Shown here piece by piece: positions 25,114-64,000 of a stretch of 64,000 nt of DNA. This stretch comes from Alistipes sp. (GTDB lineage: Bacteria; Bacteroidota; Bacteroidia; Bacteroidales; Rikenellaceae), in assembly GCA_017437045.1 (NCBI GenBank), contig JAFSBY010000041.1:1-64000 (forward strand). The letters are read 5' to 3'. Each line of letters starts with the position of its first letter. The first letter of the stretch is position 1. Position numbers and translations under genes: made by a program. Under the pieces are notes generated by a model, which worked only from the letters and a program-made list of their open reading frames with translations, was not told where the DNA came from and ran no database searches.

Positions 25114-28100
25114 TTACAATTTGATCTGCACGTGCTTGATGCGCTCTCTGCGCCACGTGTAGAGGATGTGGACCGTTCCGTCAGCAGCCTCGATAACGGC
25201 CGGATAGGAGTACTCTCCCAGCGGACTGCTCTCGAGGGTCAGCCGATGCTGCCATGTCTTGCCGTCGCTTGACAGAGCTACCGACAGCGGGTTGCGCGGT
25301 CCTTTGGGCGTGCCGTCGATCGTCTCGAAGTTGTTATAGACCAACAGATGTTGCCCATCGCGCAGCGTGACGGCATCCAAGCCCGACTGGTTGTGCCCCA
25401 GATCGAGTAACGTCACCTCGCTCCAGGTCGTACCGCGATCCGACGAGTAGGCCGTGCCGACCTTGCCATTGCGGGTGCGGCAGAGCATCTGCAGACGTCC
25501 GTCGGCGAGTTTGAGAATCGTCGGCTGAATCGCCTCGATGGGGCGCGCCTTCGACGCATCGTAGGGCTTGGTCCCCTCCTCGGCCTTCGTCGCAACGGCC
25601 GGACGCATGCGCGTCGGCACATTCATCATCCCCTGCAGAGCGGGGGTGCGCTGCCACGTTTTGCCGTAGTCGTCCGTGTACTCGAAGTGCACGGTCCAAG
25701 CACCCTGTTCGTCGGACGAGGGGCAGAGAATGCGCCCATCGACCCATACAGGTTTGTTTTTGATCGCTCCGAAGATCCCCTCGGGCAATTGTTCGGGCTT
25801 GGACCAGCTCTTGCCGCCATTTTTCGAGCGGATCAGATAGCCCTTCCATTGGGGAACATTGGGGCCTACCTTATAAAAGAGCCACAACTCCCGCTTGCCG
25901 GGCACCTGATAGAGTACCGGATTCCAGGTCGGGTAACGCAACGTGTCATTGACGATGCCGTCAGCCACCTTCGTCGGGGCACTCCACGCATCACTGCCTT
26001 TGCGCTTGGTCGAGGTCCAGATGCAGACATCGGGATTCTTCTCGCGCGTGCCCCCAAACCAAGCGGCAATCAGATCGCCGTTGGGTAGCTCCTCGATCGT
26101 CGAGGCGTGGCACTGCTTGAAGGGTGCCTCGGTGTAGATAAACTCATTGACCAGAATGCCCTCGCGCTGTTGGCCTACGGCCGGATCGAGCCGGATGGAG
26201 ATCGAGTAGCTACCCGAACCCACCTGCCAAAGGGAGTTGTTCCCCTCGCGGCCTACGAAGCGGATCGCCGGATCGTTTACGGCCTGCTCGTCGAGCGTCG
26301 GCAGCACAAGTGTTGCGGTCGTGTTGCAGGGGATCTCGATTTGCCAATCGAGCTGCATGGGCGTTTTGCGCCAGCTGCTGCGGATCGTGCCGTGCAACGA
26401 CTCGTAGGAGGCCTCGATGCGGTCGAGGTTCTCGATCGAGAAGTCGGGCGCGAGGCGAATCTCCTTGTAGGCGGGCTTGGCGGGGTTGATACCGGCCAGG
26501 TCGCGGTAGAACCAGGGAATCAAATCGCCGAGCATCATCACATGGTTGCCCGAGTTCATCCAGGGGTTGGCCGTGTCGCCATTCCAGAGTTCCCAGATGG
26601 TCGTGGCGCCGCGTGCGGCCATGTACCCGAAGCTGGGGTAGGTGTCCTGTGAGGCCAGACGATAGGCCAGATCGCCTCGTCCCATCTTCGTTAGGTAGCG
26701 CAGCGTCCAATTCTGACCACAGACACCGCTGCTGATGTGCTCCTTGTTCTCGACAATGAGTCGCTTCAGGATCTGCTTCTCGACCTCGGCACGATATTGC
26801 TCGGGTACCAGGTCGAAGGCTACGGCCAAGAGGTTGGCCGTGACGGTGTTGTTGTCATAATAGATGCGGTCGGGGTAGAGCGCATGCTCCGGGCGAAGCG
26901 AGGTACCCTCCTCGACATGCAGGAAGGCGCGATTGAAGGCCTCCTTGGCCGCCTCGGCACGTGCTGCATAGTCAGCACGATCGGCCTCTTGTCCCAACAA
27001 CTCGGCAAAGCGGGCCATCATGGTCGAAACCTTGCTGTAATAGGCCGTGGCAATGAGTGTTGTGTTAGTTACGCGGGCCGGATCTTTACTATGGATCAGT
27101 TCGAGCGACTCGGGCGGTACACACCAATCGCCATACTTCTCCTTGGTGATCAACCCCTGGCTGTTCATGTAGCGATCGCGCATGTGGTCCATCCACCGCT
27201 TCATCGCCTCATAGTTGCGCTTGAGCGGTTCGATGTTGCCGTTGTGCTCGTAGAGCATCTCGCAGATGATCGGGAGCACCGACTGCCATACCATGCCGTC
27301 CGTGTAGTAGTTCCAGAAGGCGGGTACCACATCGGGAATACAGCCATCCTCGCGTTGTGCCTCGCGGATGTCGTCCATCCATTTGGCGTACATCGTGCCA
27401 CAATCGAACATAAAGGCCTCGCCCCAGGTGCCTACGGCATGGTCGCCCAACCAAGGCTGACGCTCGTTGCGCTGCGGGCAGTCGAGCGGAACACCTTTGT
27501 AGTTCGAGGCCAAGCCCCACCAGGCATTGCGATAGACGGTGTTGATCACCGCATTCGAGCTCTCGAACGAACCGATCGTGGGCATGTTGTCGAAGATGAA
27601 CTCGGCCTCGAAATCCTCTACCGTGGGATTCTTTAGACCCGTGATCTCGATGTAGCGGAACCCATGGTAGGAGAAGCGTGCACTCCAGTGTCGTCCCTGC
27701 TCCGTGCCGTTGGCGATGTAGATGTCGCGGCTCCAGGCATCGCGCAGGTTGCGCACGTAGAGCGAGTCGCCACGATCATTGAGCCGCTCGGCATAGCGCA
27801 TCAGGATCGTATCACCGGCCTTCGTGTCGCGGACATTGAGTTTGACCCATCCGGCCATGTTTTGGCCAAAATCGACGATCGTGCGCCCCTCGTAGTGGGT
27901 CACGCTTTGGGCCTTGAGGCGACGCATCACCTTCATGTTGGGCGAGGAGGCTCCGCGCAACGTGCCGTAAGGAATCTCGGTGCGCTGCGCCTTGATCCAT
28001 TGCGAATCGTCGTAGCCGGCTCGGGTCCAGTCGCCCAGCTCCATGCGGGCATCGTAGATCTCACCGTCGTACTCGTTGTTCGAGCGGATGGGCCCTTGTG

Positions 28101-28956
28101 CGGTCAGTCGCCACGAAGGGTCGCTGGCAATCTTTTGCGTGGTGCCGTCCTCGTACTCGACGATCAGATTCAGACGCATCTTCGGATAGCCGAAGTTGGG
28201 AATCTTGTAGGGCTTGTAGTTCTGGCGCATGGTGTAGTAACGGCCGTTGCCTAACACCACACCGATCGCGTTCGGCCCCTCGGTCGAGAGCTCCTGGGTG
28301 ACATCGAACGAGTTGTAGGTGATCGTACGACGATAGTCGGTCGGCACGGGGGCCAGCACCTGATCGCCGATCTGCGCTCCGTTGATAAAGAGCTCGTACA
28401 TGCCGACACCGGCTATGTGGAGCGTAGCTCGACGAATCGGTTTCGATTCCAGCGCAAACTCGTTACGCAGGTAGCGGGCACTGAGCTCGCTGTGTGTGAT
28501 CTCTTTATCCCAGGCAAAGGGGGCATCCCAGCCGATCCAGCGGCCGCTCCAATGGGTCTCACCGAGCAATCCCATGCCCCATTCGGCCACCTCGCTCCAG
28601 GGGCTTTCGCCGCGGGTCGTGGCGACCTGCACCTGCCAATAGCAACGCTGATTGCTCTGCAGGCGTTTGCCGCCATAAGGTACCCAGATGGATTGATCCG
28701 AGGCAACCACGCCCGAGTCCCACAGGTCGGCCTTTCCCTCGGCCAGCAGTTCGGGAGCGGTGGCTACGCGGATGTGGTAGGCGGTCTGCATCACATCGCG
28801 CTGGTCAGAGGTGATCACCCAGCTCAATCGGGGTGCTGCGCGCTCGACCGAGAGTGGGCGAGCCATCTGCTCCACCTCCAACCCTCCGACGCGCACCCCT
28901 GCTAAAAGCATGAGGGGCGCGGTCAAGAGTGTAATCAGGATTGAAAGTCGTTTCAT
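25114..28956 (-). CDS. GH78 alpha-L-rhamnosidase fused to a BNR_2 sialidase-like propeller
   Basis: A 1280-residue secreted protein (signal peptide to about residue 19). Residues 20-930 are a GH78 alpha-L-rhamnosidase: N-terminal beta-sandwich domains, then the (alpha/alpha)6 barrel with the acid-bearing DCPQRNERQPWLGD (E498) and the base-bearing ATTIWELWNGD (E789). From about residue 935 a second domain begins with EAPFKQCHASTIEELPNGD and has the repeated Asp-box style blades (SKNGGKSW, TDDYGKTW, SSDRGTTW, SSDGKTW) of a BNR_2 propeller. The first half would release L-rhamnose from pectin side chains. The propeller may be a second hydrolase acting on an adjacent sugar. The fusion is uncommon to my knowledge. 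Confidence 0.88.
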   Translation of the reverse strand: MKRLSILITLLTAPLMLLAGVRVGGLEVEQMARPLSVERAAPRLSWVITSDQRDVMQTAYHIRVATAPELLAEGKADLWDSGVVASDQSIWVPYGGKRLQSNQRCYWQVQVATTRGESPWSEVAEWGMGLLGETHWSGRWIGWDAPFAWDKEITHSELSARYLRNEFALESKPIRRATLHIAGVGMYELFINGAQIGDQVLAPVPTDYRRTITYNSFDVTQELSTEGPNAIGVVLGNGRYYTMRQNYKPYKIPNFGYPKMRLNLIVEYEDGTTQKIASDPSWRLTAQGPIRSNNEYDGEIYDARMELGDWTRAGYDDSQWIKAQRTEIPYGTLRGASSPNMKVMRRLKAQSVTHYEGRTIVDFGQNMAGWVKLNVRDTKAGDTILMRYAERLNDRGDSLYVRNLRDAWSRDIYIANGTEQGRHWSARFSYHGFRYIEITGLKNPTVEDFEAEFIFDNMPTIGSFESSNAVINTVYRNAWWGLASNYKGVPLDCPQRNERQPWLGDHAVGTWGEAFMFDCGTMYAKWMDDIREAQREDGCIPDVVPAFWNYYTDGMVWQSVLPIICEMLYEHNGNIEPLKRNYEAMKRWMDHMRDRYMNSQGLITKEKYGDWCVPPESLELIHSKDPARVTNTTLIATAYYSKVSTMMARFAELLGQEADRADYAARAEAAKEAFNRAFLHVEEGTSLRPEHALYPDRIYYDNNTVTANLLAVAFDLVPEQYRAEVEKQILKRLIVENKEHISSGVCGQNWTLRYLTKMGRGDLAYRLASQDTYPSFGYMAARGATTIWELWNGDTANPWMNSGNHVMMLGDLIPWFYRDLAGINPAKPAYKEIRLAPDFSIENLDRIEASYESLHGTIRSSWRKTPMQLDWQIEIPCNTTATLVLPTLDEQAVNDPAIRFVGREGNNSLWQVGSGSYSISIRLDPAVGQQREGILVNEFIYTEAPFKQCHASTIEELPNGDLIAAWFGGTREKNPDVCIWTSTKRKGSDAWSAPTKVADGIVNDTLRYPTWNPVLYQVPGKRELWLFYKVGPNVPQWKGYLIRSKNGGKSWSKPEQLPEGIFGAIKNKPVWVDGRILCPSSDEQGAWTVHFEYTDDYGKTWQRTPALQGMMNVPTRMRPAVATKAEEGTKPYDASKARPIEAIQPTILKLADGRLQMLCRTRNGKVGTAYSSDRGTTWSEVTLLDLGHNQSGLDAVTLRDGQHLLVYNNFETIDGTPKGPRNPLSVALSSDGKTWQHRLTLESSPLGEYSYPAVIEAADGTVHILYTWRRERIKHVQIKL

Positions 28957-28978
28957 GTAGGTTTGTTCGGGTTAGCGG

Positions 28979-30415
28979 TTAGATAGCCTGCTCGCCGGCC
29001 TCGATGTAGCTCTTCTCGGCATCGAAGGCGATCAGTACGCGGTCGTTGGTCGGGCCCTGCTCACCCTCGCCCTGGAAGGTGTGGATGCCGTTCTCCAACT
29101 CACCGGCTGCTGTCAGCGTACCATCCGAAGGATTCATCCACCAGATCTGCTTCTTCTGACCGGCAATCTTCGTCAGGTCGATCTGCATCGGTCGGTTGGT
29201 GTAGGTGTAGACCATCAGGTAGTCCTCACCGCGCGTTGCGATGGCGCGGTCGTAGCGGAAGCCGTTCTCAGCGGCAATCACCGACTGATCGCCTACACGC
29301 TCAAAGAAGGGGAAGCGCAGGATGAGCTTCTTGACATACTGCATCTGCGAGAAGCCGGGATCTTGCAAACCCTCTTTCCAGCTCTTGATGGCACCGTAGC
29401 CACCCGGCTTGTCGCCACCCTTGTGCATCTGCATGATCGAGTTGTGGCCGTAGGTATGGCCAAAGGCACCGGCAAATACCGACCAGTAGGCATAACGACG
29501 TACATCGTGCGACTTCCACCACGGCTCTGAAGGATCGTGCAGACCCTGCGGGATCTCCTCATACGAAGGCTCGCCATCGAGAATCGGCTTCTGCGGTTCG
29601 AGGGCCAGACCCTCCTCTACGTAGCGCCAGTTATCCTCGGCAACCGAAGCCTGGGCCGTGTCGTCGCCATCGCCACGCGTCTGATCGTAACGACGGTGAC
29701 CGCTCTGGAACATGTTGAAATCGAGCCACTCGGCGTTGTGGAACCAACGTACCGACGAGGTGCGACCAAAGGGGTGGAAGGTCATCAGGTGGTTCTGATC
29801 GATGCTCTTAATGGTGCGAGCCAGCGTCTCCCACGAGGCGGTCTCGACATCACCTTTGATATCGCCACCGATAAACCAGATGATGTTGGGCTGATCCTTG
29901 TAGCGGTTGGCTAAGAACTCACCATAGGCTTTGGCCTCCTCGACGGTCATCAGACCCTTCTTCACCAGACCGCCCCAGATGCAGACCATACCGATGTAGA
30001 TACCGTTCTGCTCGGCTTTGCTGATCAGGTAGTCCATGTTCTGCCAATAGCCCTGCTCGCCCTCGGCCTCGATCTGCGAGAAGTCATAACCGTTCGGGTG
30101 CGAAAGTTTGCCATACACGTTCGTCGCGGGCACACCATTGACCGTCTGCACCTGTACGACATTGTAGCCGGCCGTTTTGCAGGCATCGAGGTAGAAGTCT
30201 GCCTCCTCGCGGGTCAGCTTCTCGGGCAGCAACCAGCCCGTCTCACCCAACCAGAAGAAGGGGGTGCCGTTCTCGTGTTGCAGATAGCGGCCATTCTCCG
30301 AAACACACAATTTGCCGTTCTCCCACGGCAGCTGTGCGGTTGCCTCCTCGGCCTGGGGCTGTGATGCGCAGGCTGCCATGCAGGCTGCGGCCAAAAATAA
30401 CAGAATCTTTTTCAT
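28979..30415 (-). CDS. GH140-type apiosidase-like hydrolase (DUF4038)
   Basis: A 478-residue lipoprotein (lipobox MAAC, Cys16). A TIM-barrel DUF4038 domain spans about residues 35-375 and a small C-terminal beta domain follows (putative collagen-binding domain type). The candidate catalytic residues are D185 in FIGGDIKGD and E282 in DGEPSYE. Their 97-residue spacing equals that of the two catalytic residues I recall for the B. thetaiotaomicron RG-II apiosidase BT1012 (GH140). It would cut the apiose link that joins RG-II side chains A or B to the backbone. It lies between two GH78 genes, 22 nt from the next. Confidence 0.85.
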   Translation of the reverse strand: MKKILLFLAAACMAACASQPQAEEATAQLPWENGKLCVSENGRYLQHENGTPFFWLGETGWLLPEKLTREEADFYLDACKTAGYNVVQVQTVNGVPATNVYGKLSHPNGYDFSQIEAEGEQGYWQNMDYLISKAEQNGIYIGMVCIWGGLVKKGLMTVEEAKAYGEFLANRYKDQPNIIWFIGGDIKGDVETASWETLARTIKSIDQNHLMTFHPFGRTSSVRWFHNAEWLDFNMFQSGHRRYDQTRGDGDDTAQASVAEDNWRYVEEGLALEPQKPILDGEPSYEEIPQGLHDPSEPWWKSHDVRRYAYWSVFAGAFGHTYGHNSIMQMHKGGDKPGGYGAIKSWKEGLQDPGFSQMQYVKKLILRFPFFERVGDQSVIAAENGFRYDRAIATRGEDYLMVYTYTNRPMQIDLTKIAGQKKQIWWMNPSDGTLTAAGELENGIHTFQGEGEQGPTNDRVLIAFDAEKSYIEAGEQAI

Positions 30416-30459
30416 AAGTTTATGGTAGTTTGTTTGATTATTGTTTGCGGTTGGGTTGT

Positions 30460-33000
30460 CTATTTCTTCTCGGCGGCAGCTTTCGCGGCAGCCTTCTCGG
30501 CATTGCGCTTATCGACGTAGGCCTTGAAGAGGGCGCGCCAATCGCGGCCTTGAGCGTTCAGGTATTGCTCACATTTGGTCTTATAGACCTCGAATACCTG
30601 CGAAATGGCCTTCATGCGACGACACTCCAACGCCTCCTCGCGTGCCTGCTCTAAATAGCCACGCAGCACAGCGGCCTCCTGATCGGTCAGGTCGGGGATG
30701 ATGGCATAGTAGCCTCGCATCGTGAAATCGACCTTGCCGATCGTGTAACCGTCGTAGATTTGGATGATCTGCTCGGCCGAGAGGTGCTTCTTCAGCCCCT
30801 TGACAAGTGCTTTGCGTACCGAGGCGGGGATGGATAGGTCGGCCATCATTTCGCGCTCTACCTCGTTGAGTTTACGTCCCGTTTTGGCCTCGACCTCGGG
30901 GATGGAGGTGTAGGGGTGTGCGTTGTGCCACTCGACCACCGCTGTGCGATGTGCGCGTACGATCTCGGTGACGGCTGCCGCTTTGGCCGAATCGGTCAGG
31001 TTGAGGGCGGCAACGATCTGCTCACTTTTGGCCATGTACTTTTCGTCATCCTGCTTGGCCTTCTTCTCGGCCTTGCGCTTGTCGGTGTAGCTCTTGTAGA
31101 GCTGACGCCAGGGACGACCCGTGTTGGTGAAGTGCTGCTCGCACTTCGTCTTGTAGATCTCAAAGACCTGCGAGATGGCCTTCATGCTCTTGCAGTCGAT
31201 CGCCTCGCTGCGAGCTATTTTGAGCTGCTCGAGGATGTAGGCCTCATCCTCGGCCGTCATGTCAGGGACAATCGATTTGTAACCCTGCAATGTGAAATTC
31301 ACCTTGCCGATTGTGTAGAGGTCCAGCACCTGCTCGATCTGCTCGGGGGTCAGCACGCGCCCCAGATCCTTCATCAGGCGAGCACGCTCCGAGGCGGGAA
31401 TCGTCCGATCGGCCATCATCTCGCGCTCGACCTTCGAGAGTTTGCGTCCGGTGGCTTTATCGACCTCGGGGATGATCGTGTAGGGGTGCGAGTTGTGCCA
31501 ATCGCGCACGGCACGACGGTGGTTGTAGATCGCCGTCGTGGCAATTTGGATCGCCTTCGGATCGCTCAACTCGAGCTTGGCAACCATCTCCCGAGCCTGC
31601 TTGAGCACCGACTCATCCGCTGCGGCGGCACGTACACGCTGCTTGCCAAAGAAGGGAGCTAACCCATTGACCGAACGAATCGCGTGCTCGGGCATCAGCT
31701 CACCCGCTTTACCAAACGAGTAGAGTGCCTCGTACGGCTCGATCGTCACCGCAGCCTCGTCAATTTGGCTCTTGTCGAGCTGGAAGGCCGTACCGAAGAA
31801 ATCATAGACGGCATTGCGCTTGTTCGGACCGAAGTCGTGCCCCTCGTTAGCCAGGTGTACATTCGAGAGCTGCTCCTCGGCACCATACATGCGATAGACC
31901 TTTTGCAGGTAGGGATACTCGACCGTCGGCACGCTCGACGTCCAATCCTTGCCGTCCGAGACTACACACAACGGCTTGGGGGCAAAGATGGCAGCCATCT
32001 CGGCCATGCAGGTGCCACCTCCGGCCTGCGTGACCGGCATGCCACTCTCGCAAGGACATCCGCCATCGAAGTGCGACGAAAGGCTCACGACAGGGCAGAG
32101 AGCCGTATAGCGATCATCCACGACGCTGAGCAGCACCGAGTGCGCACCGCCGCCCGAACCGCCATTGACACCCACGCGGCTCTTGTCGGCCGTGGGGAGG
32201 GTCAGCAGGTAGTCCAAGATGGTGATGCCGTTCAGGATCTGAATCTGCTGACCATACGAGGTGCGGTGTGCTACGGATGAAACCTGCCACTCCGACTCAC
32301 CCCAACCGAAGAGGTCAAAGTCGGCACAGATAGCACCCATGCGGGCCAGCGTAGCCATGCGCTGCTGCTGATCTTTGCGGTAGCGGCCATCGCCAAAGTG
32401 GCCGTTGGGGCAGATGATGATCGGATGCGAACCTTTGGTCGTGGGGGCATAGATCGAGCCACAGACAAAGAGCCCGGGCAGGGTCTCGATGGCAAAGTTC
32501 TGCACCGTGTAACCCTTGAATTTACGCACCTTCGAGAGGATCGGCTTGAGCTCGACACGCAGGGCCAGGAGTCGCTCCAAATCGAGCGTCTCGCGCACCT
32601 GGCGGCGGATCACCTCACCTCGAGCTTCGAGTGCCTCGGTCGAGGTGTAGAGCGAAAGCAGGTACTCGACCAGCTGCGCCCCCTCTTCGACCGTACGGCG
32701 GTGGTGCTCGTAGGGCTTAATCTTGTAATAGGAGTCCGTCTGCTTGACAAATTTGTAGTCAAAGAGCTTCAATACGTTGTCCATCGACTCTTCGACCGAG
32801 TAGGGACGAATGCGCGAGGCTGCATAGGGAACCTTGCGACCGGTCGTGTCCACCTCAATCTTGAGTTTGACGCCAAATTGGGTCGAAATGCCATTCAGCA
32901 CCTCGCTCAACGAGCGGGTTTGTGCCTCATCTTGCGCCATCACCCCGGAGGTGAGAAGCAGGAGCGCTGCGAGCAGGAGTGTGATTCTCTTCATATTCAT
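30460..33000 (-). CDS. STN domain + alpha/beta-hydrolase esterase + two DUF3826 domains
   Basis: An 846-residue secreted protein with an unusual build. Signal peptide to about residue 22; residues 30-97 resemble the STN (secretin/TonB N-terminal) domain; about 160-450 is an acetylxylan-esterase-like alpha/beta hydrolase with nucleophile Ser282 in NGGSGGG and His388 in NEGHDFG; about 464-640 and 654-832 are two copies of DUF3826. The copies share REMMAD, YTIGKV and MKAISQVFE exactly 190 residues apart. In an RG-II-like locus the esterase could be related to the CE19 methylesterase BT1017, but that is inferred. The function of DUF3826 is unknown to me. Confidence 0.8.
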   Translation of the reverse strand: MNMKRITLLLAALLLLTSGVMAQDEAQTRSLSEVLNGISTQFGVKLKIEVDTTGRKVPYAASRIRPYSVEESMDNVLKLFDYKFVKQTDSYYKIKPYEHHRRTVEEGAQLVEYLLSLYTSTEALEARGEVIRRQVRETLDLERLLALRVELKPILSKVRKFKGYTVQNFAIETLPGLFVCGSIYAPTTKGSHPIIICPNGHFGDGRYRKDQQQRMATLARMGAICADFDLFGWGESEWQVSSVAHRTSYGQQIQILNGITILDYLLTLPTADKSRVGVNGGSGGGAHSVLLSVVDDRYTALCPVVSLSSHFDGGCPCESGMPVTQAGGGTCMAEMAAIFAPKPLCVVSDGKDWTSSVPTVEYPYLQKVYRMYGAEEQLSNVHLANEGHDFGPNKRNAVYDFFGTAFQLDKSQIDEAAVTIEPYEALYSFGKAGELMPEHAIRSVNGLAPFFGKQRVRAAAADESVLKQAREMVAKLELSDPKAIQIATTAIYNHRRAVRDWHNSHPYTIIPEVDKATGRKLSKVEREMMADRTIPASERARLMKDLGRVLTPEQIEQVLDLYTIGKVNFTLQGYKSIVPDMTAEDEAYILEQLKIARSEAIDCKSMKAISQVFEIYKTKCEQHFTNTGRPWRQLYKSYTDKRKAEKKAKQDDEKYMAKSEQIVAALNLTDSAKAAAVTEIVRAHRTAVVEWHNAHPYTSIPEVEAKTGRKLNEVEREMMADLSIPASVRKALVKGLKKHLSAEQIIQIYDGYTIGKVDFTMRGYYAIIPDLTDQEAAVLRGYLEQAREEALECRRMKAISQVFEVYKTKCEQYLNAQGRDWRALFKAYVDKRNAEKAAAKAAAEKK

Positions 33001-33022
33001 TCTGGTTTATTATGCTTGTTGC

Positions 33023-35785: not shown

Positions 35786-35788
35786 GGT

Positions 35789-39109: not shown

Positions 39110-39321
39110 TGTGTTAGCGGTTTTTTATTTGTCTCTTTTAATTTGTTTTCTGCTCGTTATTAGGTAGTTGCATGCGTCGATCTTGTTGCCTCGAAAGGCT
39201 CGGAAAGGCCCATGCTATTCCACGTTACAATATTAGCAAGAAAAGCCCGAACGAGCTATAAATTATTGCTATTTTTTTTGCGGTTTTTGAAACTATACCT
39301 CTTTTTATAAAAAATATAACG

Positions 39322-39329
39322 TATCTTTG
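39322..39329 (+). promoter_or_regulatory. Candidate -7 box for the GH127 gene
   Basis: TATCTTTG matches TAnnTTTG exactly and lies 35 nt before the GH127 ATG at 39365. The expected -33 region is only T-rich (near 39298-39306). The 255-nt divergent spacer (39110-39364) must also hold the promoter of the - strand operon, for which I see only a near match at 39228-39235. No other structure is evident in the spacer. Confidence 0.55.
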
Positions 39330-39364
39330 TTTAGAGATAATATAATTTTTACTACATAACCTTT

Positions 39365-47785: not shown

Positions 47786-47848
47786 TCGAAGCAATCTCGC
47801 CAAATTATGCTGGTTGCAGATACTTCCTGGTATTCTAAAAACTAATTG

Positions 47849-52033: not shown

Positions 52034-52036
52034 CCT

Positions 52037-55297: not shown

Positions 55298-55322
55298 CGT
55301 AAACTGAATAGGACTTCAAACG

Positions 55323-55370
55323 AACAAGGGACTGTCGCAACACGTTTGTTGGACAGTCCCTTGTTTGTTG
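55323..55370. terminator. Bidirectional terminator between GH2 and GH28
   Basis: AACAAGGGACTGTC (55323-55336) and GACAGTCCCTTGTT (55352-55365) form a perfect 14-bp stem around a 15-nt loop, followed by TGTTGG on + and TCGTTT on -. It lies in the 87-nt convergent spacer and would serve both genes. Confidence 0.8.
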
Positions 55371-55384
55371 GTTTGAAGGGGTGA

Positions 55385-56782
55385 TTACTCGGCAACCTCT
55401 TCGGGTGCGAGATTCATGGTCACATTCTCGTAGTGGATCGGGTCACACATACCCGAGATCGACTCCTCGGCCTTGACGTTGTTGAAGGTGCAATTCTTCA
55501 GGTAGATCTCGTGGACGTTCGAGAGCGAATCAAGCGCCGTGACACAGACACCGTAGCGGCTCTTCTGGCTGGTCATGTTCTCCAGATAGACATGCTGCAC
55601 GGTGGGGTGGAACTGGGCATCCTTGATCTCCTTCGTGTCATAAATCAGGTTGATCTTCAGGATCGCCTCCTTGCACTCACCGACGGTCACGTTACGTACG
55701 TAGATGTGCTCGATGAGGCCACCGCGACGGCTGTTGGTCTTGATGCGGATGGCACGATCCAGCTGGGGCGAATCCATCGTGCAGTTCTCGACAAAGAGGT
55801 TCTTGTAACCACTGCCGATCTCGCTGCCGATTACCACGCCACCGTGGCCGTTCTTCATCTCGCAGTTGCGGACGATCATGTTCTGGCTCGGAATGTTGAT
55901 CGAACGGGCATCCTCGTCACGACCCGATTTGATGGCGATGCAGTCGTCGCCGGTGTTGAAGAAGCAATCCTCGATCAGCACGTAGTTGCACGATTCGGGG
56001 TCGCAACCGTCGCCGTTCGGGCCGTCGTTGATGAACTTCACGTCGCGTACGGTGATGTTCTCGCAGAATACAGGGTGGAGATTCCAGAAGGGCGAACGGA
56101 TCATCGTAACACCCTCAATCAGAATATTCTTACACTCAAAGGGGCTGACTAACTGCGGACGCATGCCGTAGCCATGACCCAGCAGACGCTCCTCGACGGG
56201 CTTGCCCTGCTCGAGCCACTCCTTGAGCAGCGGACGACCCACCTTCTGCGAGGCGCGACGCTCCGGCTCCCAATCGGTCTCCAGATTCCAGCACATAGCC
56301 CACCAATTCTTCACCGAAGCACCGCCATCGAGCGTGCCGAGACCCGTTACGGCGATGTTCTCCTGGTTGTTGGCGTAGATCATCGGCGAGTAGTTGTAGC
56401 AATCCATGCCCTCCCAGCGGGTGCGTACCATGGGGTAGTGGTCCAGATCGTCCGAGAAGAGGATTGTAGCCCCCTCTTCGAGGTGCAGATCGACATTCGA
56501 GAGTAGCGTGATGGCGCCCGAAAGCCACTGGCCGGCCGGAACAATGACATGGCCACCGCCCTCGGCGTTGCAGGCCTGAATGGCGGCATTGATTGCCTCG
56601 TGGCAGGCCACCTCGGGCTGTGCACCGAAGTCGCGGATGTCAAAATTGCGATCGGGGAAGGTTGGAGCGACGATCTTGGCCTCGATCTGCGGATAGAGCT
56701 CGCTCCAAGCTTTGTCAGCCGGCGAGGTGCAGGCCACACACGCCAATGCGGCCAGGGGCAGGAAAAGATGAGGAATTTTCAT
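55385..56782 (-). CDS. GH28 polygalacturonase / alpha-galacturonidase lipoprotein
   Basis: A 465-residue right-handed beta-helix enzyme with a lipobox CVAC (Cys18). All GH28 motifs are present: GPNGDGCDPES (D258, D261), NTGDDCIAIKSG (D279, D280), NGHGGVVIGSE (H313) and RAIRIKTN (R346, K348). It hydrolyses alpha-1,4-linked galacturonic acid, here probably exo-acting on short oligosaccharides; the GDGCDPES form is common in exo-type bacterial members. It is the only - strand gene in the 39-64 kb half and diverges from fucI. Confidence 0.93.
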   Translation of the reverse strand: MKIPHLFLPLAALACVACTSPADKAWSELYPQIEAKIVAPTFPDRNFDIRDFGAQPEVACHEAINAAIQACNAEGGGHVIVPAGQWLSGAITLLSNVDLHLEEGATILFSDDLDHYPMVRTRWEGMDCYNYSPMIYANNQENIAVTGLGTLDGGASVKNWWAMCWNLETDWEPERRASQKVGRPLLKEWLEQGKPVEERLLGHGYGMRPQLVSPFECKNILIEGVTMIRSPFWNLHPVFCENITVRDVKFINDGPNGDGCDPESCNYVLIEDCFFNTGDDCIAIKSGRDEDARSINIPSQNMIVRNCEMKNGHGGVVIGSEIGSGYKNLFVENCTMDSPQLDRAIRIKTNSRRGGLIEHIYVRNVTVGECKEAILKINLIYDTKEIKDAQFHPTVQHVYLENMTSQKSRYGVCVTALDSLSNVHEIYLKNCTFNNVKAEESISGMCDPIHYENVTMNLAPEEVAE

Positions 56783-56891
56783 GAATAATGGTAGGTTAGT
56801 GTAAAAAATGAAATGAAATTTTGTGAAAAAAAATATTTTGATTACTTTTGTTAGCTGGGGTGTTAAATCGTTTTAGATTTGCCGCTCTTTG

Positions 56892-56921
56892 CAAAGTTAG
56901 CCAAAAAAAGCGAAATTCAAA
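56892..56921 (-). promoter_or_regulatory. Promoter of the GH28 gene
   Basis: On the - strand TAACTTTG (56899-56892) matches the -7 box, with TTTG (56921-56918) 18 nt upstream. Transcription would start near 56886, about 100 nt before the ATG. For the divergent fucI gene the best + candidate is TAGATTTG at 56874-56881, with TTTG 23 nt upstream, which is a looser fit. Confidence 0.6.
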
Positions 56922-56951
56922 CAAGAACCATAAACTAATACGAAAAACAGT

Positions 56952-58724
56952 ATGAAAAACTATCCCAAAATTGGTATTCGTCCTGTGATCGACGGCCGCC
57001 GTCGCGGTATCCGCGAGTCGTTGGAGCAGAAGACGATGGGCATGGCCGAGGCTGTGGCCAAGTTCTATGCCGAGCATTTGTGCTATGCTGACGGTACGCC
57101 CGTGCAGTGTGTGATCGCCGACACGACGATCGGTGGTGTGGCAGAGGCTGCTGCTTGTGCCGATAAGTTCCGTGACAACAACGTAGGTGCCGTTTTGTCG
57201 GTAACGCCCTGCTGGTGCTATGGTACGGAGACGATCGATATGGATCCGCTCATGCCGAAGGCTATCTGGGGTTTCAATGGTACGGAGCGTCCGGGTGCTG
57301 TGTATTTGGCTGCTGCGCTGGCTGCCCACACGCAGAAGGGTCTGCCCGCATTTGGCATCTATGGCCGTGATGTGCAGGATCTGGAGGATATGTCGATTCC
57401 GGAGGATGTGCAGGAGAAGCTTTTGCTCTTCGGTCGTGCCGCTGTAGCGCTGATGCAGATGAAGGGTAAGGCTTACCTCTCGATCGGTTCGGTTTCGATG
57501 GGTATTGCCGGTTCGACCTGTAACCCCGACTTCTTCCAGGAGTACCTGGGCATGCGCAACGAGTTCGTCGATTGTACGGAGCTGCTGCGCCGCATGGATC
57601 AGGGCATCTATGACAAGGAGGAGTTCGAGAAGGCAATGGCTTGGGTTGAGAAGTATTGCAAGCCCAACGAGGGTCAGGATTGGAACCGCGAGGATCTGGT
57701 TTACGACCGCGAGCAGAAGGATAAGAACTGGGAGTTCGTCGTGAAGATGATGCTCATCATGCGCGACCTGATGATCGGCAACGAGAAGCTCACCGAGATG
57801 GGCTTCGAGGAGGAGGGCTGCGGCCATAACGCTATTGCCGGTGGTTTCCAGGGTCAGCGTCAGTGGACCGACTGGCAGCCCAACGGCGACTTCGCCGAGG
57901 CAATGCTCAACACGTCGTTCGACTGGAACGGTATCCGTGAGCCGTTTGCATTTGCTACCGAAAACGATACGCTCAACGGTGCTTCGATGCTGCTGATGAA
58001 GCTCCTTACGAACCGTGCACAGATGTTCGCCGATGTGCGTACGTTCTGGTCGCCCGAGGCTGTAGAGCGCGTAACGGGTATGAAGCTCGAGGGTAAGGCT
58101 GCCGGTGGTATTATCCACCTGATCAACTCGGGTGCTTGTACGCTCGATGCGACGGGTCAGCAGTCGGATGAGAACGGCAACCCGATCATGAAGCCCTTCT
58201 GGGAGATCACCGAGGAGGAGAAGGAGAAGTGTCTGGAGGCTACGACGTGGTTCCCCGCAGACCGCGGTTACTTCCGTGGAGGCGGTTACTCGTCGCACTT
58301 CCTTACGCGCGGTGAGATGCCGATGACCATGTGCCGTCTGAATCTGGTGAAGGGTCTGGGCCCCGTGATGCAGATTGCCGAGGGTTGGGCAGTGGATACC
58401 GATCCGCACATCTTCGAGGTGATTAACAAGCGTACGGACCGCACGTGGCCGACGACGTGGTTTGCTCCGCGTCTGACCGGCGAGGGTGCTTTCCGTGATG
58501 TTTACTCGGTGATGAACAACTGGGGTGCCAACCACGGTGCGATCAGCTATGGCCACATCGGTGCCGAGATCATCACGCTCTGCTCGATGCTGCGTATTCC
58601 GGTTTGCATGCACAACGTGGCCTCGGAGAAGATCTTCCGTCCGTCGGCCTGGGCATCGTTCGGTATGGATCCCGAGGGCTCGGATTACCGTGCTTGCGAG
58701 ACCTACGGTCCGGTGTATAAGTAG
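56952..58724 (+). CDS. fucI: L-fucose isomerase
   Basis: A 590-residue cytoplasmic isomerase that converts L-fucose to L-fuculose (also D-arabinose to D-ribulose). The length is within one or two residues of E. coli FucI. Family motifs are [65 protein letters not shown] and [20 protein letters not shown], which carries the metal-binding Glu and Asp. Fucose and 2-O-methylfucose are RG-II sugars, so this gene would process a released monosaccharide. No fucK, fucA or fucP is next to it. Confidence 0.95.
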
Positions 58725-58749
58725 TAGTTAGCATTTCAGTTGAAGTCGT

Positions 58750-58853
58750 CTGATTAGGTGATTTTTGCGTCTTGCTCGCCCTGGAGGGGCTCGTTTATGG
58801 GTCAATAAACACACCTTCTCGGGTCTTGTGAGCCTTGAGAATTCCGCTAGTCA
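58750..58853. repeat. Structured intergenic repeat, copy 2 (diverged)
   Basis: The same order of motifs as at 41478-41582: outer arms CTGATTAGGTGA / TCCGCTAGTCA (with G-T pairs), GCGTCTTGCTCGCCC, a small hairpin GTTTAT-GGGTCA-ATAAAC and AGCCTTGAGAATTC. Bases in the stems differ from copy 1, yet pairing is kept, which suggests a conserved structure. Confidence 0.6.
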
Positions 58854-58871
58854 TACGCTTCCCGATCACAA

Positions 58872-58915
58872 GGGGCTGTCCAACAATGATTGTCGGACAG
58901 CCCCAATTTTTTGTT
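58872..58915 (+). terminator. Intrinsic terminator after fucI
   Basis: GGGGCTGTCC (58872-58881) pairs with GGACAGCCCC (58895-58904). The inner ACAAT-G-ATTGT extends the stem. AATTTTTTGTTTTT follows. It is a strong terminator for the fucI transcript and sits about 45 nt before the next promoter. Confidence 0.9.
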
Positions 58916-58947
58916 TTTGGTAAAAGCATAGCTTTTCTTGCCTTTCG

Positions 58948-58979
58948 TTTGGCATTGTCGTGGGCTTTTCGTATATTTG
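58948..58979 (+). promoter_or_regulatory. Promoter of the GH106-SASA-DUF5703 operon
   Basis: TTTG (58948-58951), 20 nt spacing and TATATTTG (58972-58979) match the Bacteroidota consensus on both boxes. The start would be near 58985, about 18 nt before the GH106 ATG at 59003. Confidence 0.82.
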
Positions 58980-59002
58980 TAAAATACCGAAGGACTACAC
59001 TT

Positions 59003-62000
59003 ATGAACTCCGTTATACGCAAAATTGCAGGTTTGATGCTCCTGCTTGGCTGTACGCTCTCGGCTGCGGCGCAATCGTTGGAAGAGGCTTTCCGAGCCCC
59101 GTCGGGTGATGCCAAACCCTGGACGTTGTGGTATTGGATGTATGGCGCAGTCTCGGATGAGGCGGTGCGAGCCGATTTGGAGGCTATGTCGCAAGCCGGA
59201 TTGGGCGGTGCCTATCTGGTGACGATCCGTTCGAGCGACGATCCGCGTGGCGGGGAGTATCGTGGTGATTCGGATCAGCTGACCGAGAATTGGTGGAAGC
59301 GTGTGCATACGGCCATTGCGGAGGCCGATCGACTGGGGCTGCAGTTGGGTGTGCATATCTCGGACGGCTTTGCGCTGGCCGGAGGTCCCTGGATCGCACC
59401 CGAGGAGTCGATGCAAAAGGTGGTCTTCTCGAATACGTATCTGCAGGAGGGTGGTCGCGTGGAATTGACCCTGCCCAAACCGGCCCATTACGAGGACTAT
59501 TACGAGGATATTGCTCTCTTTGCACTGCCCTATGAGGGCTATGTCGGGCCTTCGTGTGAGCCTTCGGTGCGTTGCGAGAACTTAGATCCGCAGGCGACCG
59601 AAAAGCAGCGCGTCTCGATCGACGAGAAGGGGGTAATTCGTGCCGGAGCACCCTGCCGATTGCTCTATACCTTCCCCGAAGAGGTGGAGGTGCGCCATGT
59701 TGAGATCATCCTCTCGGGCAATAATTACCAGGCCCATCGCCTGACGATGCTGGCCAAAGGGGCGGATGGGGCCTATCATTTGGTGTCGCAACTCGAACCG
59801 GCCCGCCATGGTTGGCAGAATACCGATTTCCAATCGACCCACGCTGTTCCGGTGACGAAGAGCCGCGAATTTGCCTTCGAATGGACACCCGCAGGCAGTG
59901 AGCCCGGATCGGAGGATCTGGATGCAGCCAAGTGGAAGCCCAATCTGAAGATCAAGGAGATTCGCTTTGGGGTTGAGCCGCGTATCCACCAATGGGAGGG
60001 TAAAGCCGGTTATGTGTGGCGCGTAGCAGCTTCGACGGGCGATCGCGTGGCCACGTCCGACTGCTATGCCATGGATCAGGTCATCTGCCTGACCGATAGT
60101 CTGGAGGGCGATCAGCTGCGTTGTACGTTGCCCGAGGGCCATTGGCGACTGTTGCGCATGGGGCACACCTCGACGGGCCATACGAATGCCACGGGAGGTG
60201 CCGGTCGCGGTCTGGAGTGTGATAAATTCAGCCGTGAGGCGGTCTCAGAGCAGATTGATAATTGGTTTGGTAGGGTGTATGAGTCGGTGGATCGCGCCGT
60301 GGCCGAGCGAGTGCTGAAGGTGCTCTATGTCGATAGCTGGGAGTGTGGTTCGCAGAATTGGAGCAAGCATTTTGCGGCCGAATTTAAGGCACGACGGGGC
60401 TATGACCTGACCCCCTGGATGCCGCTCTATGCCGGAGTGCCGATGGTCTCGGTGGAGGATTCGGAGCGCGTATTGCGCGATATTCGCACGACGATCGGTG
60501 AGTTGATTCACGATGTCTTCTTCGATGTGTTGGCGGCGAAGGCCGATCATTATGGTTGTCGCTTTACGGCCGAGAGTGTGGCCCCGACAATGGTTAGTGA
60601 TGGTATGTATCACTACGATAAGGTCGATCTGCCGATGGGTGAGTTTTGGCTCGACAGCCCCACGCACGACAAACCGAATGATATGTTGGATGCCATCAGT
60701 GGCGGCCATGTCTATGGAAAGCGGATCATCTCGGCCGAAGGTTTTACCGAGGTGCGAGGCGTGTGGAACGAGACTCCGGCGATGCTCAAACCGGTCTTGG
60801 ACCGCAACTATGCGCTGGGCTTGAATCGCTTGGTGTACCACGTAATGACTCATAATCCCTGGATGGATCGTCGTCCGGGCATGACGCTCGACGGCATTGG
60901 CCTCTTCTTCCAGCGCGACAACAGTTGGTGGGAGCATGGCGCTTCGGCCTTGAGCAGTTATGCGGCACGAGCCCAGACGCTGTTGCAATATGGTACTCCG
61001 GTGGTGGATTTGGCGGTCTTTACGGGTGAGGAGATGCCGCGTCGCTCGATCCTGCCCGATCGGTTGGTGCCGACGTTGCCCGGTGTGTTTGGCGAGGAGC
61101 GGGTCGAGAGCGAGCGGCTGCGCCTGAAAAACGAGGGGCAACCGCTGCGTGTTAAGCCGGTGGGCGTAACCCATTCGGCCAATATGGCCGATCCGGAGGA
61201 TTGGATCAACCCGCTGCGGGGCTATGCCTACGACTCGTTCAACCGCGACGCCTTGTTGCGTTTGGCCAAGGTCGAGGATGGGCGGATGGTGCTGCCCGGA
61301 GGGGCTTCGTATCGTGTCTTTGTGGTACCCGAGCCACGTCCGTTGAATCCCGAGCGTCCGATGAGCGAAGCGGTGCGCGCCAAGATCGAAGAGCTGCGCC
61401 AGGGAGGCGTTGTGGTGGTCGATACCCCCTATACGGAGGCCGATTTTGCGGCCTATGACCTGCCGCGCGATGTGGAGGTACCCGCGCAGATTGCTTGGGC
61501 GCATCGTCGCTCGGAGCAGGAGCATACCGATATCTATTTCTTGGCCAATCAAACCCCCGAGCGGCGATCGTTCACCGCTTCGCTGCGGGTAGCCGGTCGT
61601 ATTCCCGAGTTGTGGGATGCCGAGAAGGGGACGATCTGCGATGCCGCCTCGTGGCGCGTGGCAGAAGGCCGTACGGAGGTTGATGTGGTGTTGGATGCCT
61701 ATGCCTCGATCTTCGTTGTGCTGCGTCGGGAGGGTACTCCGACCGCACAGCAACAGCCGCAAGAGGCGGTGCAACCCCTGGAGACCGCTTCGTGGCAGGT
61801 GAGCTTCGATCGGCATGCCGACGGCGTGTTGGAGGTGGAGAGCCCGGCACTCTTTGACTGGGCGCAGAGCGAGCAGGAGCAGATCCGCTACTTCTCGGGT
61901 ACGGCAACCTATCGCACGACGTTCCGCTATCGTAGAAAGGGCGAGCGTGTGGTGCTGCGTCTGGGCGATGTGCGCGATGTGGCAGCCGTGACGGTCAATG

Positions 62001-62248
62001 GCGTAGCGTGTGGTGTGGCGTGGACAGCCCCCTATGAGGTGGAGATCACCGAGGCCCTCCGTCGGGGTGAAAACCGATTGGAGATTCGCCTCTCGAACAG
62101 TTGGGCCAATGCTATCTTGGGTATGGACGAGGGTAAGGCTCCCTATAGCGGTATTTGGACCAATGCCCGCTACCGCACGAAGAACCAACAGCTGATTCCG
62201 GCCGGTCTGCTTGGCCCGCTGGAGTTGGTCACCAGCCAGCAAGAATAG
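59003..62248 (+). CDS. GH106 alpha-L-rhamnosidase
   Basis: A 1081-residue secreted enzyme. The start at 59003 is chosen because it gives a signal peptide (KIAGLMLLLGCTLSAAAQ) directly downstream of a good promoter; longer in-frame readings from 58835 run through that promoter and a terminator. The GH106 opening FRAPSGDAKPWTLWYWMYG and the barrel motifs YVDSWECGSQNW, RRGYDLTPWMP and FTAESVAPTMVSDG are diagnostic. The C-terminal beta-sandwich (RLSNSWANAILGMDEGKAPY) closes the protein. It releases L-rhamnose by inversion, and two GH106 enzymes act on RG-II in B. thetaiotaomicron. Confidence 0.92.
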   Translation: MNSVIRKIAGLMLLLGCTLSAAAQSLEEAFRAPSGDAKPWTLWYWMYGAVSDEAVRADLEAMSQAGLGGAYLVTIRSSDDPRGGEYRGDSDQLTENWWKRVHTAIAEADRLGLQLGVHISDGFALAGGPWIAPEESMQKVVFSNTYLQEGGRVELTLPKPAHYEDYYEDIALFALPYEGYVGPSCEPSVRCENLDPQATEKQRVSIDEKGVIRAGAPCRLLYTFPEEVEVRHVEIILSGNNYQAHRLTMLAKGADGAYHLVSQLEPARHGWQNTDFQSTHAVPVTKSREFAFEWTPAGSEPGSEDLDAAKWKPNLKIKEIRFGVEPRIHQWEGKAGYVWRVAASTGDRVATSDCYAMDQVICLTDSLEGDQLRCTLPEGHWRLLRMGHTSTGHTNATGGAGRGLECDKFSREAVSEQIDNWFGRVYESVDRAVAERVLKVLYVDSWECGSQNWSKHFAAEFKARRGYDLTPWMPLYAGVPMVSVEDSERVLRDIRTTIGELIHDVFFDVLAAKADHYGCRFTAESVAPTMVSDGMYHYDKVDLPMGEFWLDSPTHDKPNDMLDAISGGHVYGKRIISAEGFTEVRGVWNETPAMLKPVLDRNYALGLNRLVYHVMTHNPWMDRRPGMTLDGIGLFFQRDNSWWEHGASALSSYAARAQTLLQYGTPVVDLAVFTGEEMPRRSILPDRLVPTLPGVFGEERVESERLRLKNEGQPLRVKPVGVTHSANMADPEDWINPLRGYAYDSFNRDALLRLAKVEDGRMVLPGGASYRVFVVPEPRPLNPERPMSEAVRAKIEELRQGGVVVVDTPYTEADFAAYDLPRDVEVPAQIAWAHRRSEQEHTDIYFLANQTPERRSFTASLRVAGRIPELWDAEKGTICDAASWRVAEGRTEVDVVLDAYASIFVVLRREGTPTAQQQPQEAVQPLETASWQVSFDRHADGVLEVESPALFDWAQSEQEQIRYFSGTATYRTTFRYRRKGERVVLRLGDVRDVAAVTVNGVACGVAWTAPYEVEITEALRRGENRLEIRLSNSWANAILGMDEGKAPYSGIWTNARYRTKNQQLIPAGLLGPLELVTSQQE

Positions 62249-62276
62249 ACGAAAAAAAGAATAATAACCTACAACG

Positions 62277-63728
62277 ATGAAACAGATGAAATCTTTGATG
62301 CTGCTCATCGCCCTGATGATGGCGGTGACGGCAACGGCCGAGGTGCGTATGCCGGCCTTCTTTGGTGATAATATGGTGCTGCAACAGCAGAGCGATGCTC
62401 CGCTGTGGGGCTGGGCAACTCCCAAGAAAAAGGTGACGGTGAGCCCGTCGTGGAGCGAGGAGAGCTATACGACCAAGGCCGATGAGCAGGGTCGTTGGCG
62501 CGTGAGCCTGCCGACACCGGAGGCCGGAGGTCCCTACTCGATTACGATTTCGGATGGCGAGGAGCTGACGCTGCAGAATGTCATGCTGGGCGAGGTGTGG
62601 ATCTGCTCGGGCCAGTCGAACATGGAGATGCCGATGAAGGGTTTCAAGAATCAGCCTGTCGAAAACGGCAACCTCGATGCTGCGAAGGGTACGAACCCGA
62701 ATATCCGCCTCTTCACGGTGAAGCGCAATGCGCAGCTTGAAGCCGTAGAGGATGTGACGGGTAAATGGGCCGAGGCCAAGCCCCTTTCGATTCGTGATTT
62801 CTCGGCTACGGCCTACTACTTCGGTCGTATGATCGAGGAGGAGTTGCAGGTGCCCGTAGGTTTGATCTGTGTGGCGTGGGGCGGCTCGGCATGTGAGGCG
62901 TGGATGACCCCCGAGATGCTTTCGGCCTTCCCGCAGGTGAAGTTGCCGGCCACACAGGCCGAGGTCGATAAGACCAAGCAACGTTGCCCGACTGCCCTCT
63001 GGAACGGCATGCTCAAACCGTTGGTGGGTATGGCTATGCGCGGCGTGATCTGGTACCAGGGTTGCGACAACTGGAACCGCGCCTACTACTATGCCGATCT
63101 GCACGCGACGATGATCCGTGGCTGGCGTGAGCAGTGGGGTATTGGCGATTTCCCCTTCTACTATTGCCAGATCGCTCCGTTCGATTACGATATCATCACG
63201 GCCGTAGGGCAGCCGCGTTACAATTCGGCCTACCTGCGCGAGCAGCAGGCCAAGGTGGAGCACATGGTGCCCAATACGGGTATGGCCGTGTTGCTCGATG
63301 TCGGTATGGAGCGAGGCATCCACCCCTATGATAAGCAGACTCCGGGCGAGCGCCTGGCGCTGCACGCCTTGTCGAAAACCTATGGCTTCGAGGGTATCTA
63401 TTGCGATAGCCCCGTCTTTAAGGGGATCGAAATTAAAGGCAATGTTGTGGAGGTTTCGTTCGATCGCTCGCCGATGTGGATCTCGTGCAAGCATGGCTTT
63501 GCCTCGAAGTGCTTTGAGGTGGCCGGTGAGGATCGGGTATTCTACCCCGCCAAGGCTGAGGTGAAGCAGAAGAAGATGATCGTCAGCTCGGAGCAGGTAC
63601 CGAACCCCGTAGCCGTGCGCTATGGCTTCAAGGATTGGGTTGTGGGCGATCTGTTTGGCTCGGATGGTCTGCCGATCTCGTCGTTCCGATCGGATGATTG
63701 GGCCGATCCGGCACCGATCAAGCAGTAG
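62277..63728 (+). CDS. SASA-family carbohydrate O-acetylesterase (sialate O-acetylesterase-like)
   Basis: A 483-residue secreted SGNH-type esterase (signal peptide ends near VTATA). An N-terminal beta domain (MPAFFGDNMVLQQ) is interleaved with the SASA catalytic domain: nucleophile S114 in CSGQSNMEMP, GLICVAWGGSACEAWM, and the Asp/His block in MERGIHPYDKQTPGERLAL. The usual GVIWYQGESN segment reads GVIWYQGCDN here. In this locus it would remove acetyl groups from pectin sugars (RG-II carries O-acetylated methylfucose and aceric acid) rather than from sialic acid. It lies 28 nt after GH106. Confidence 0.85.
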   Translation: MKQMKSLMLLIALMMAVTATAEVRMPAFFGDNMVLQQQSDAPLWGWATPKKKVTVSPSWSEESYTTKADEQGRWRVSLPTPEAGGPYSITISDGEELTLQNVMLGEVWICSGQSNMEMPMKGFKNQPVENGNLDAAKGTNPNIRLFTVKRNAQLEAVEDVTGKWAEAKPLSIRDFSATAYYFGRMIEEELQVPVGLICVAWGGSACEAWMTPEMLSAFPQVKLPATQAEVDKTKQRCPTALWNGMLKPLVGMAMRGVIWYQGCDNWNRAYYYADLHATMIRGWREQWGIGDFPFYYCQIAPFDYDIITAVGQPRYNSAYLREQQAKVEHMVPNTGMAVLLDVGMERGIHPYDKQTPGERLALHALSKTYGFEGIYCDSPVFKGIEIKGNVVEVSFDRSPMWISCKHGFASKCFEVAGEDRVFYPAKAEVKQKKMIVSSEQVPNPVAVRYGFKDWVVGDLFGSDGLPISSFRSDDWADPAPIKQ

Positions 63729-63760
63729 TTCAGTGCAAATTTAGCAGGTAGCATTCCACC

Positions 63761-64000
63761 ATGATCCATGTAAAAACGCTTCTTTTCACCATAGGGATGG
63801 TGTTGTGGTCGTTGATGACCATGGCACAACCGGCCGATTACAGTTGGACAACGCAAAGTGCCAACTCTTCGGAGTCGATGCCGTTAGGCGGCCATGATCT
63901 AGGTCTTAATGTCTGGGTCGAGCAGAACGATCTGCTGTTCTACATCACCCGCAGCGGCTCGTATGACGAACACAATACGCTGCTCAAGGCGGGGCGTGTG
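63761..64000 (+). CDS. DUF5703-type secreted glycan enzyme, 5' part only
   Basis: The first 80 codons of a gene that runs off the window. A signal peptide (KTLLFTIGMVLWSLMTMAQ) is followed by DYSWTTQSANSSESMPLGGH and GLNVWVEQNDLLFYITRSGS, then HNTLLKAGRV. This is the opening of the Bacteroidota DUF5703 N-terminal domain, found in large secreted proteins related to GH95-like (alpha/alpha)6 enzymes. It lies 32 nt after the esterase gene and is in the same operon. The catalytic part is outside the window, so the substrate is unknown. Confidence 0.8.
   Translation, partial: MIHVKTLLFTIGMVLWSLMTMAQPADYSWTTQSANSSESMPLGGHDLGLNVWVEQNDLLFYITRSGSYDEHNTLLKAGRV

Follow-up and report, generated by a model that had tools for sequence, protein, structure and literature searches.

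The window analysed here, positions 1 to 64,000 of a 144,330-base contig (C39) of an Alistipes genome (2.22 Mb, 45 contigs, 92.8% complete), carries a cluster of enzyme genes predicted to degrade the plant pectin rhamnogalacturonan II (RG-II). The cluster occupies C39:25114-73561 and is followed by a V-ATPase operon. It reaches 9.6 kb past the window edge, where a preliminary description of the window had let it end. Its genes, with glycoside hydrolase (GH) families, are as follows:

25114-28956, minus strand: GH78-type alpha-L-rhamnosidase with a C-terminal BNR_2 sialidase-like domain (Pfam Bac_rhamnosid6H 2.5e-106; BNR_2 1.2e-85, residues 960-1264)
28979-30415, minus strand: GH140-type apiosidase (Pfam Apiosidase 1.9e-116), a predicted lipoprotein by a simple N-terminus rule
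30460-33000, minus strand: BT1017-type pectin methylesterase with DUF3826 (PDB 6goc 2e-256; Ser/Asp/His triad kept in alignment)
33023-35785, minus strand: GH78-type alpha-L-rhamnosidase (Pfam Bac_rhamnosid6H 1e-102)
35789-39109, minus strand: GH143-GH142 bimodular enzyme, BT1020 type (Pfam BT_1020 beta-propeller 3e-116; PDB 5mqr 1820.9 bits)
39110-39364, no strand: divergent promoter region between GH143-GH142 and GH127 (alignment of seven Alistipes genomes)
39365-41470, plus strand: GH127, aceric acid hydrolase type (NCBIfam NF049879 1066.7 bits, cut-off 950; Pfam GH127 5.1e-116)
41651-43006, plus strand: MFS sugar-type transporter (Pfam Sugar_tr/MFS_1; locus comparison)
42954-45083, plus strand: alpha-rhamnosidase-like, BT1001 type (PDB 3cih 1170.6 bits; Pfam PF21209 1.6e-93); the true start is probably downstream of 42954
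45110-47785, plus strand: GH138 alpha-galacturonidase (PDB BPa0997 1321 bits, E361 conserved; NCBIfam NF049878 1401.8 bits, cut-off 1300)
47846-52033, plus strand: GH137-GH2 beta-glucuronidase/beta-L-arabinofuranosidase, BT0996 type (PDB 5mt2 1.4e-196; NCBIfam NF049877 2431.3 bits, cut-off 1800)
52037-55297, plus strand: GH2 enzyme, LacZ type (Pfam Glyco_hydro_2_C 2.6e-92; under every NCBIfam equivalog cut-off listed)
55385-56782, minus strand: GH28 enzyme, predicted lipoprotein (Pfam GH28 7.2e-25; 35-36% to the GH28 of the B. faecis and B. xylanisolvens loci)
56952-58724, plus strand: L-fucose isomerase FucI (NCBIfam TIGR01089 1064.6 bits, cut-off 850)
58835-62248, plus strand: GH106 alpha-L-rhamnosidase (Pfam GH106 1.9e-139); the true start may be downstream
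62277-63728, plus strand: SASA-family carbohydrate esterase (Pfam SASA 2.4e-15)
C39:63761-66028, plus strand (the window holds 63761-64000): DUF5703 gene (PDB 9hyq match)
C39:66059-68674, beyond the window: GH2
C39:68798-70483, beyond the window: pectate lyase-like protein (PelZ profile 3e-37; NCBIfam 128 bits against a cut-off of 840; without a Pfam lyase family)
C39:70496-73561, beyond the window: DUF6298, the last gene before the V-ATPase operon

We take PDB entries 6goc, 5mt2, 5mqr and 3cih and the NCBIfam models to represent the Bacteroides thetaiotaomicron (BT) genes named above, and several of the CAZy family numbers are likewise assumed. All enzyme classes named in the preliminary description are present between 25114 and 63728, several of them recognized as well by NCBIfam equivalogs above cut-off or by close matches to solved enzymes. 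The RG-II-diagnostic set is present, consisting of GH143-GH142, the aceric acid hydrolase GH127, GH138, GH137-GH2, the apiosidase, and the BT1017-type methylesterase. Catalytic residues were compared for two enzymes, the methylesterase and GH138. The triad reported for BT1017 (S282, D352, and H388; PMC7939467) maps to identical residues in the 6goc chain with a constant offset of 6 and is kept in the 30460-33000 protein. The GH138 of the window also keeps the glutamate that is replaced in PDB entry 'BPa0997 N-ter E361S'. From the aceric acid hydrolase equivalog and two more RG-II-type equivalogs above cut-off, the strong 5mqr match, and these conserved residues, we infer that RG-II, the target proposed earlier, is the substrate; it is better supported than before.

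A linked susC/susD pair, by which a polysaccharide utilization locus (PUL) is called, is missing at the enzyme cluster. A six-frame profile search of C39:1-142000, complemented by two SusD families, finds no SusC or SusD before 112 kb. The only two pairs in this range lie at 112.3-116.9 kb, near LRR and subtilase genes, and at 134.2-139.6 kb, the same two spots at which the SusD families place a SusD on C39. With 358 and 448 bits, compared to 1462-1926 bits for eight linked RG-II SusC, their SusC proteins are rejected as partners; the profile behind these scores included the eight linked SusC and that of genome G007 (62 kb away, 959 bits). The longest-ORF-first (open reading frame) gene caller missed some genes in G+C-rich genomes, among them FucI and one SusC of the genome analysed here, and SusC and SusD were therefore recounted on all six-frame stretches. 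A second caller, trained on the codons of this genome, performed poorly on others, and the reference genes for 8 of 10 genomes come from the first.

The related receptors are found on another contig, C26. In eight genomes of several families, a SusC/D pair of one lineage lies 3.7-21 kb from GH143-GH142. Profiles built from SusC (A1, 5 rows) and SusD (A2, 7 rows) near GH143-GH142 elsewhere were run on whole genomes. In that of the window, they match SusC at C26:93533-96937 (1623 bits) and C26:101046-104435 (1485 bits), the next listed match having 432 bits, and SusD at C26:91189-93516 (888 bits) and C26:104454-106664 (860 bits), the next listed having 77 bits. Both C26 SusC exceed the TIGR04056 cut-off. 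The earlier statement that no SusC/D pair is present holds for the window and its neighbourhood and fails for the genome, where two RG-II-type pairs probably represent the distant uptake system that had been offered as one option.

The receptor locus (C26:86.6-106.7 kb) consists of two divergent halves. The minus strand carries DUF3826, two pectate lyase-like genes, SusD, SusC, and a DUF4992/DUF4957 lipoprotein, and the plus strand continues with DUF4992/DUF4957, SusC, and SusD, followed by another, unlike SusC/D pair. Bacteroides-type loci hold a block of DUF3826, pectate lyase-like, SusD, SusC, and DUF4992 near GH143-GH142, with members varying by locus; it adjoins GH143-GH142 in B. xylanisolvens, B. 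faecis, and B. graminisolvens, and its order matches C26. Compared with the SusC of the same three species and P. paurosaccharolyticus, the two C26 SusC show 61-63% and 54-57% identity. For the block of the first pair, identity to the three Bacteroides amounts to 61% (SusC), 67-75% (pectate lyase-like), 63-67% (DUF3826), 49-50% (SusD), and 28-37% (DUF4992). Both C26 pectate lyase-like proteins share 54-55% identity with their counterpart in the enzyme cluster; the one that was searched matches PDB 9buj (1.3e-42). The divergent two-pair arrangement recurs in 6 of 8 Alistipes receptor loci examined; among these eight, G141 has one pair and then a SusC of another kind, and the stretch from G155 is cut off where its contig ends. 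As judged from gene content and homology, and from the co-occurrence and separation described below, the C39 cluster is probably the enzyme half of a dispersed RG-II utilization system in an Alistipes lineage, with its uptake half on C26.

Within the genus, the two parts occur together. Of the 180 genomes searched, 10 hold full-length GH143-GH142; in a further two, the match is confined to the C-terminal half of the enzyme (45%). RG-II-type SusC, called at E up to 1e-200, is found in 11 of the 180, including all 10 with the full-length enzyme (Fisher's exact p 1.4e-15, without kinship correction). Linkage of the two was seen in none of the ten. They share a contig in G140 (about 226 kb apart) and G141 (139 kb apart) and lie on different contigs in the remaining eight, where contig ends impose a minimum distance of 84 kb in the window genome, 30-140 kb in G153, G155, G223, and G085, and about 127 kb in G101.

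Outside the genus, linkage was counted in the 30 non-Alistipes genomes among 36, themselves 36 of 50. An 80-locus survey with flanks of at most 10 kb was excluded, because such flanks miss pairs 16-21 kb away. SusC lies on the same contig as GH143-GH142 in 21 of the 30, at 1.3-21.1 kb; in five of these (G021, G024, G025, G032, and G033) the best SusC match stays below 1300 bits, that of G024 being split over two frames. In eight genomes, four Bacteroidaceae and four Prevotellaceae, SusC is on another contig at a minimum distance of 28.6-165 kb, which in every case exceeds the largest linked gap. In the remaining genome, G027 (Muribaculaceae), neither RG-II-type SusC nor RG-II-type SusD was found. 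Its GH143-GH142 is full-length, and the rest of the cluster was not found within about 38 kb on either side, except for one weak GH28 match; G027 is possibly a true scavenger or a remnant. For the window genome, the scavenger option of the preliminary description would mean a bacterium without an RG-II importer that trims oligosaccharides freed by others and acquires the products by way of general porins and the MFS transporter. The lack of SusC/D on C39 before 112 kb, the failure to find a linked Reg_prop sensor, and the example of G027 fit such a life style, but the presence of RG-II-type SusC in all ten genus genomes with full-length GH143-GH142, several with pectate lyase-like genes near this SusC, disfavours it, and we consider it very unlikely.

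Points from contig ends, sampling, the SusC tree, and regulation weigh against a two-part system. The minimum distance is 22.8 kb in G193, little more than the largest linked gap, and drops to about 6 kb in G146, where contig ends leave linkage open; the separation (at least 30 kb) is therefore firm in 8 of 10 genomes, marginal in G193, and open in G146. This small margin, together with an incomplete genome in 45 contigs, could suggest that the separation is an artefact of assembly or binning. Given that GH143-GH142 and the nearest RG-II SusC are at least 84 kb apart here by contig ends, and that G140 and G141 show the separation on single contigs, we regard an artefact as exceedingly unlikely. 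The six Alistipes genomes with titles checked are metagenome-assembled genomes (MAGs). As only four SusC candidates were scored per genome, the count of 11 genomes may be too low. G183 (85% complete) holds the SusC, on a 6.1 kb contig, without GH143-GH142. Such a case would fit a C26 module that served another pectin (such as homogalacturonan or rhamnogalacturonan I), with the enzyme cluster fed by another route, an idea to which the pectate lyase-like proteins of the module also lend themselves. Sequence does not reveal the substrate of a SusC/D pair. Against this stand the synteny of the module with the block adjoining GH143-GH142 in Bacteroides and the company its SusC keeps with GH143-GH142 in all ten genus genomes; we judge another pectin unlikely. 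The SusC tree differs from the enzyme tree, with 12 of 14 Alistipes SusC in one clade and two placed with Phocaeicola/Prevotella.

The regulatory points are as follows. No regulator was found at either the C39 cluster or the C26 receptor locus, sigma/anti-sigma genes not being part of the search. Following the preliminary description, SusC/D genes and a hybrid two-component system (HTCS) sensor were sought beyond the window: the first were found on C26, and the second has no clear orthologue. Reg_prop-type sensors occur in the genome only on C12 and C41, and neither is a clear orthologue of the HTCS of the P. paurosaccharolyticus (G031) RG-II locus (23% over the sensor and 33% over the kinase portion). 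B. thetaiotaomicron itself has two PULs that are expressed in response to RG-II without an associated regulator (PMC3243724). The divergent promoter region of the cluster shows a footprint across the seven Alistipes genomes, composed of a TAnnTTTG element and a box at 39256-39269 that six of the seven retain with no more than one substitution or other change. At up to three mismatches the box has no match in the receptor stretches L201 and L188 or in L095, and its count in the window is at chance level (3 vs 2.1 expected). Four A/T-rich 8-mers (two and their reverse complements) are shared by the promoter sets of both sites vs none in each of 20 mononucleotide shuffles; this null is too weak for them to count as evidence of a common motif.

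On a tree of 37 GH143-GH142 proteins, the linked/unlinked label changes three times, compared to 11.7 in shuffles. Seven Alistipes rows nest in a 99/99-supported clade with three Phocaeicola, one Bacteroides MAG, and the Muribaculaceae row. This mixed clade and the presence of the enzyme in 10 of 180 genus genomes suggest that GH143-GH142 may have spread horizontally. Since the SusC and enzyme trees disagree, the two halves need not share one history, and joint movement is not claimed as shown. A more far-reaching version of the two-part system would hold that RG-II use here stably pairs an enzyme island with a receptor island, the latter duplicated and divergent; the two would stay together as a pair though physically apart, would have spread between Rikenellaceae and Bacteroidaceae, and would be regulated in trans, with SusC/D paralogues that take different forms of RG-II (e.g., monomer and borate dimer). 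As a whole, we hold this version to be rather unlikely.

The most likely scheme for the dispersed system follows the RG-II model of B. thetaiotaomicron. The C26 SusC/D complexes would bind RG-II or large fragments of it and carry them through the outer membrane. The C39 enzymes, mostly bearing signal peptides, would then take this material apart in the periplasm, side chains and backbone alike, whereupon the MFS transporter would bring monosaccharides into the cytoplasm and FucI would isomerise L-fucose there. By our simple signal-peptide rule, a Sec signal is present on most cluster enzymes and absent from FucI, while SusD and DUF4992 come out as probable lipoproteins. Cooperation of the two sites in this scheme predicts that RG-II would induce the distant SusC/D genes together with the enzyme cluster.

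The known system closest to this arrangement is the B. thetaiotaomicron RG-II locus BT0977-BT1030 (PMC3243724, PMC7939467, PMC12282258), with which the comparison was made through its B. faecis and B. xylanisolvens relatives. The enzyme classes are the same, with 53-71% identity to these relatives except for GH28 (35-36%), and so are the SusC/SusD lineage and the order of the receptor block. In contrast to those Bacteroides, where the block adjoins GH143-GH142, the block here lies elsewhere and has two divergent SusC/D pairs in place of one; the interval from GH127 to the BT1001-type gene is without GH141, and no linked HTCS was found. CAZyme clusters without SusC/D are known as such: PULDB holds 2533 loci of this kind, most of which are suggested to be fragmentary versions of PULs (PMC6499787). 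The present cluster resembles them as a contiguous run of CAZymes without susC/D, but its partner module can be named and traced across the genus. Dispersed laminarin genes of Maribacter, shown by proteomics (PMC11345257), likewise place degradation genes outside a canonical PUL, for another glycan; the case presented here is one of comparative genomics only. What appears to be new is a probable split RG-II system kept as a pair. Among the papers listed by the literature search, no title or abstract beginning describes an RG-II system in Alistipes. Where PULs are called by susC/D linkage, an almost complete system for degrading the most complex plant pectin can be overlooked, and tracing the receptor lineage is a way to recover its other half. 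In named records, the closest GH143-GH142 relatives are Alistipes/Rikenellaceae MAGs from water deer, water buffalo, and 'Lapin' samples, and this Alistipes sublineage joins the probable RG-II users.

Several enzymes had been described as missing. The absence of GH33 is doubtful, because the 25114-28956 protein ends in a BNR_2 domain; this protein has relatives at 77-81% in five Alistipes genomes, and its B. thetaiotaomicron counterpart is presumably a GH78-GH33 protein, for which the search made listed no confirmation. A pectate lyase-like protein does follow past the window edge, at a score far under the model's cut-off and without a Pfam lyase family. GH141, GH95, and GH88/105, members of a B. 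faecis locus, are not in the C39 cluster; for GH95 and GH141, the earlier statement is correct for the cluster and does not extend to the genome. GH95 genes occur at two places on C38 (48% and 38%), a protein with a GH141 domain at C26:133.7 kb (27% to that of B. faecis), and GH88-type matches on C43, C8, and C41, plus one under the cut-off on C40, with orthology unproven throughout. Further RG-II enzymes may be scattered in the genome, such as GH95 on C38 and the GH141-domain protein on C26. Beside the latter (C26:126.2-135.9 kb) lie genes for a threonate-kinase-like protein, a PdxA-like dehydrogenase, an iron-containing alcohol dehydrogenase, a dihydrodipicolinate synthase-type aldolase, and a protein of 536 amino acids, which possibly serve the unusual keto-deoxy sugars of RG-II. 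The RG-II cluster of Alistipes genome G008 contains an aldolase related (30%) to this one.

Loci of B. faecis, B. graminisolvens, Paludibacter, and G007 have GH141 at the position taken by the MFS gene here. Both genes occur there in a Phocaeicola MAG (G006), and no GH141 was found at this position, between GH127 and the BT1001-type gene, in G000, G003, and G008. Proteins with DUF5703 and DUF6298 are encoded repeatedly in RG-II loci from several families and are candidates for unassigned RG-II steps. One RG-II product that B. thetaiotaomicron reportedly leaves uncleaved is the 2-O-Me-Xyl-Fuc disaccharide (PMC7939467).

Upstream of the cluster, all of them 5' of 24.1 kb, lie rpoA, a Na+/H+ antiporter gene, a gene set probably for B12 uptake, and other genes. 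The B12-uptake set (15966-24108) comprises a TonB receptor, a FecCD permease, an ABC ATPase, and DUF4465 and DUF5074 proteins, and is preceded by a cobalamin riboswitch (24301-24479, minus strand). A BtuB-like gene near the RG-II cluster is also present in G001, G002, G003, G004, and G008, which suggests a single insertion site. In G008 the gene order of the cluster agrees, apart from an additional methylesterase-like gene and two other insertions, and the cluster is bounded by a BtuB-like gene and by genes sized about like V-ATPase subunits; it thus seemingly occupies the same genomic site.

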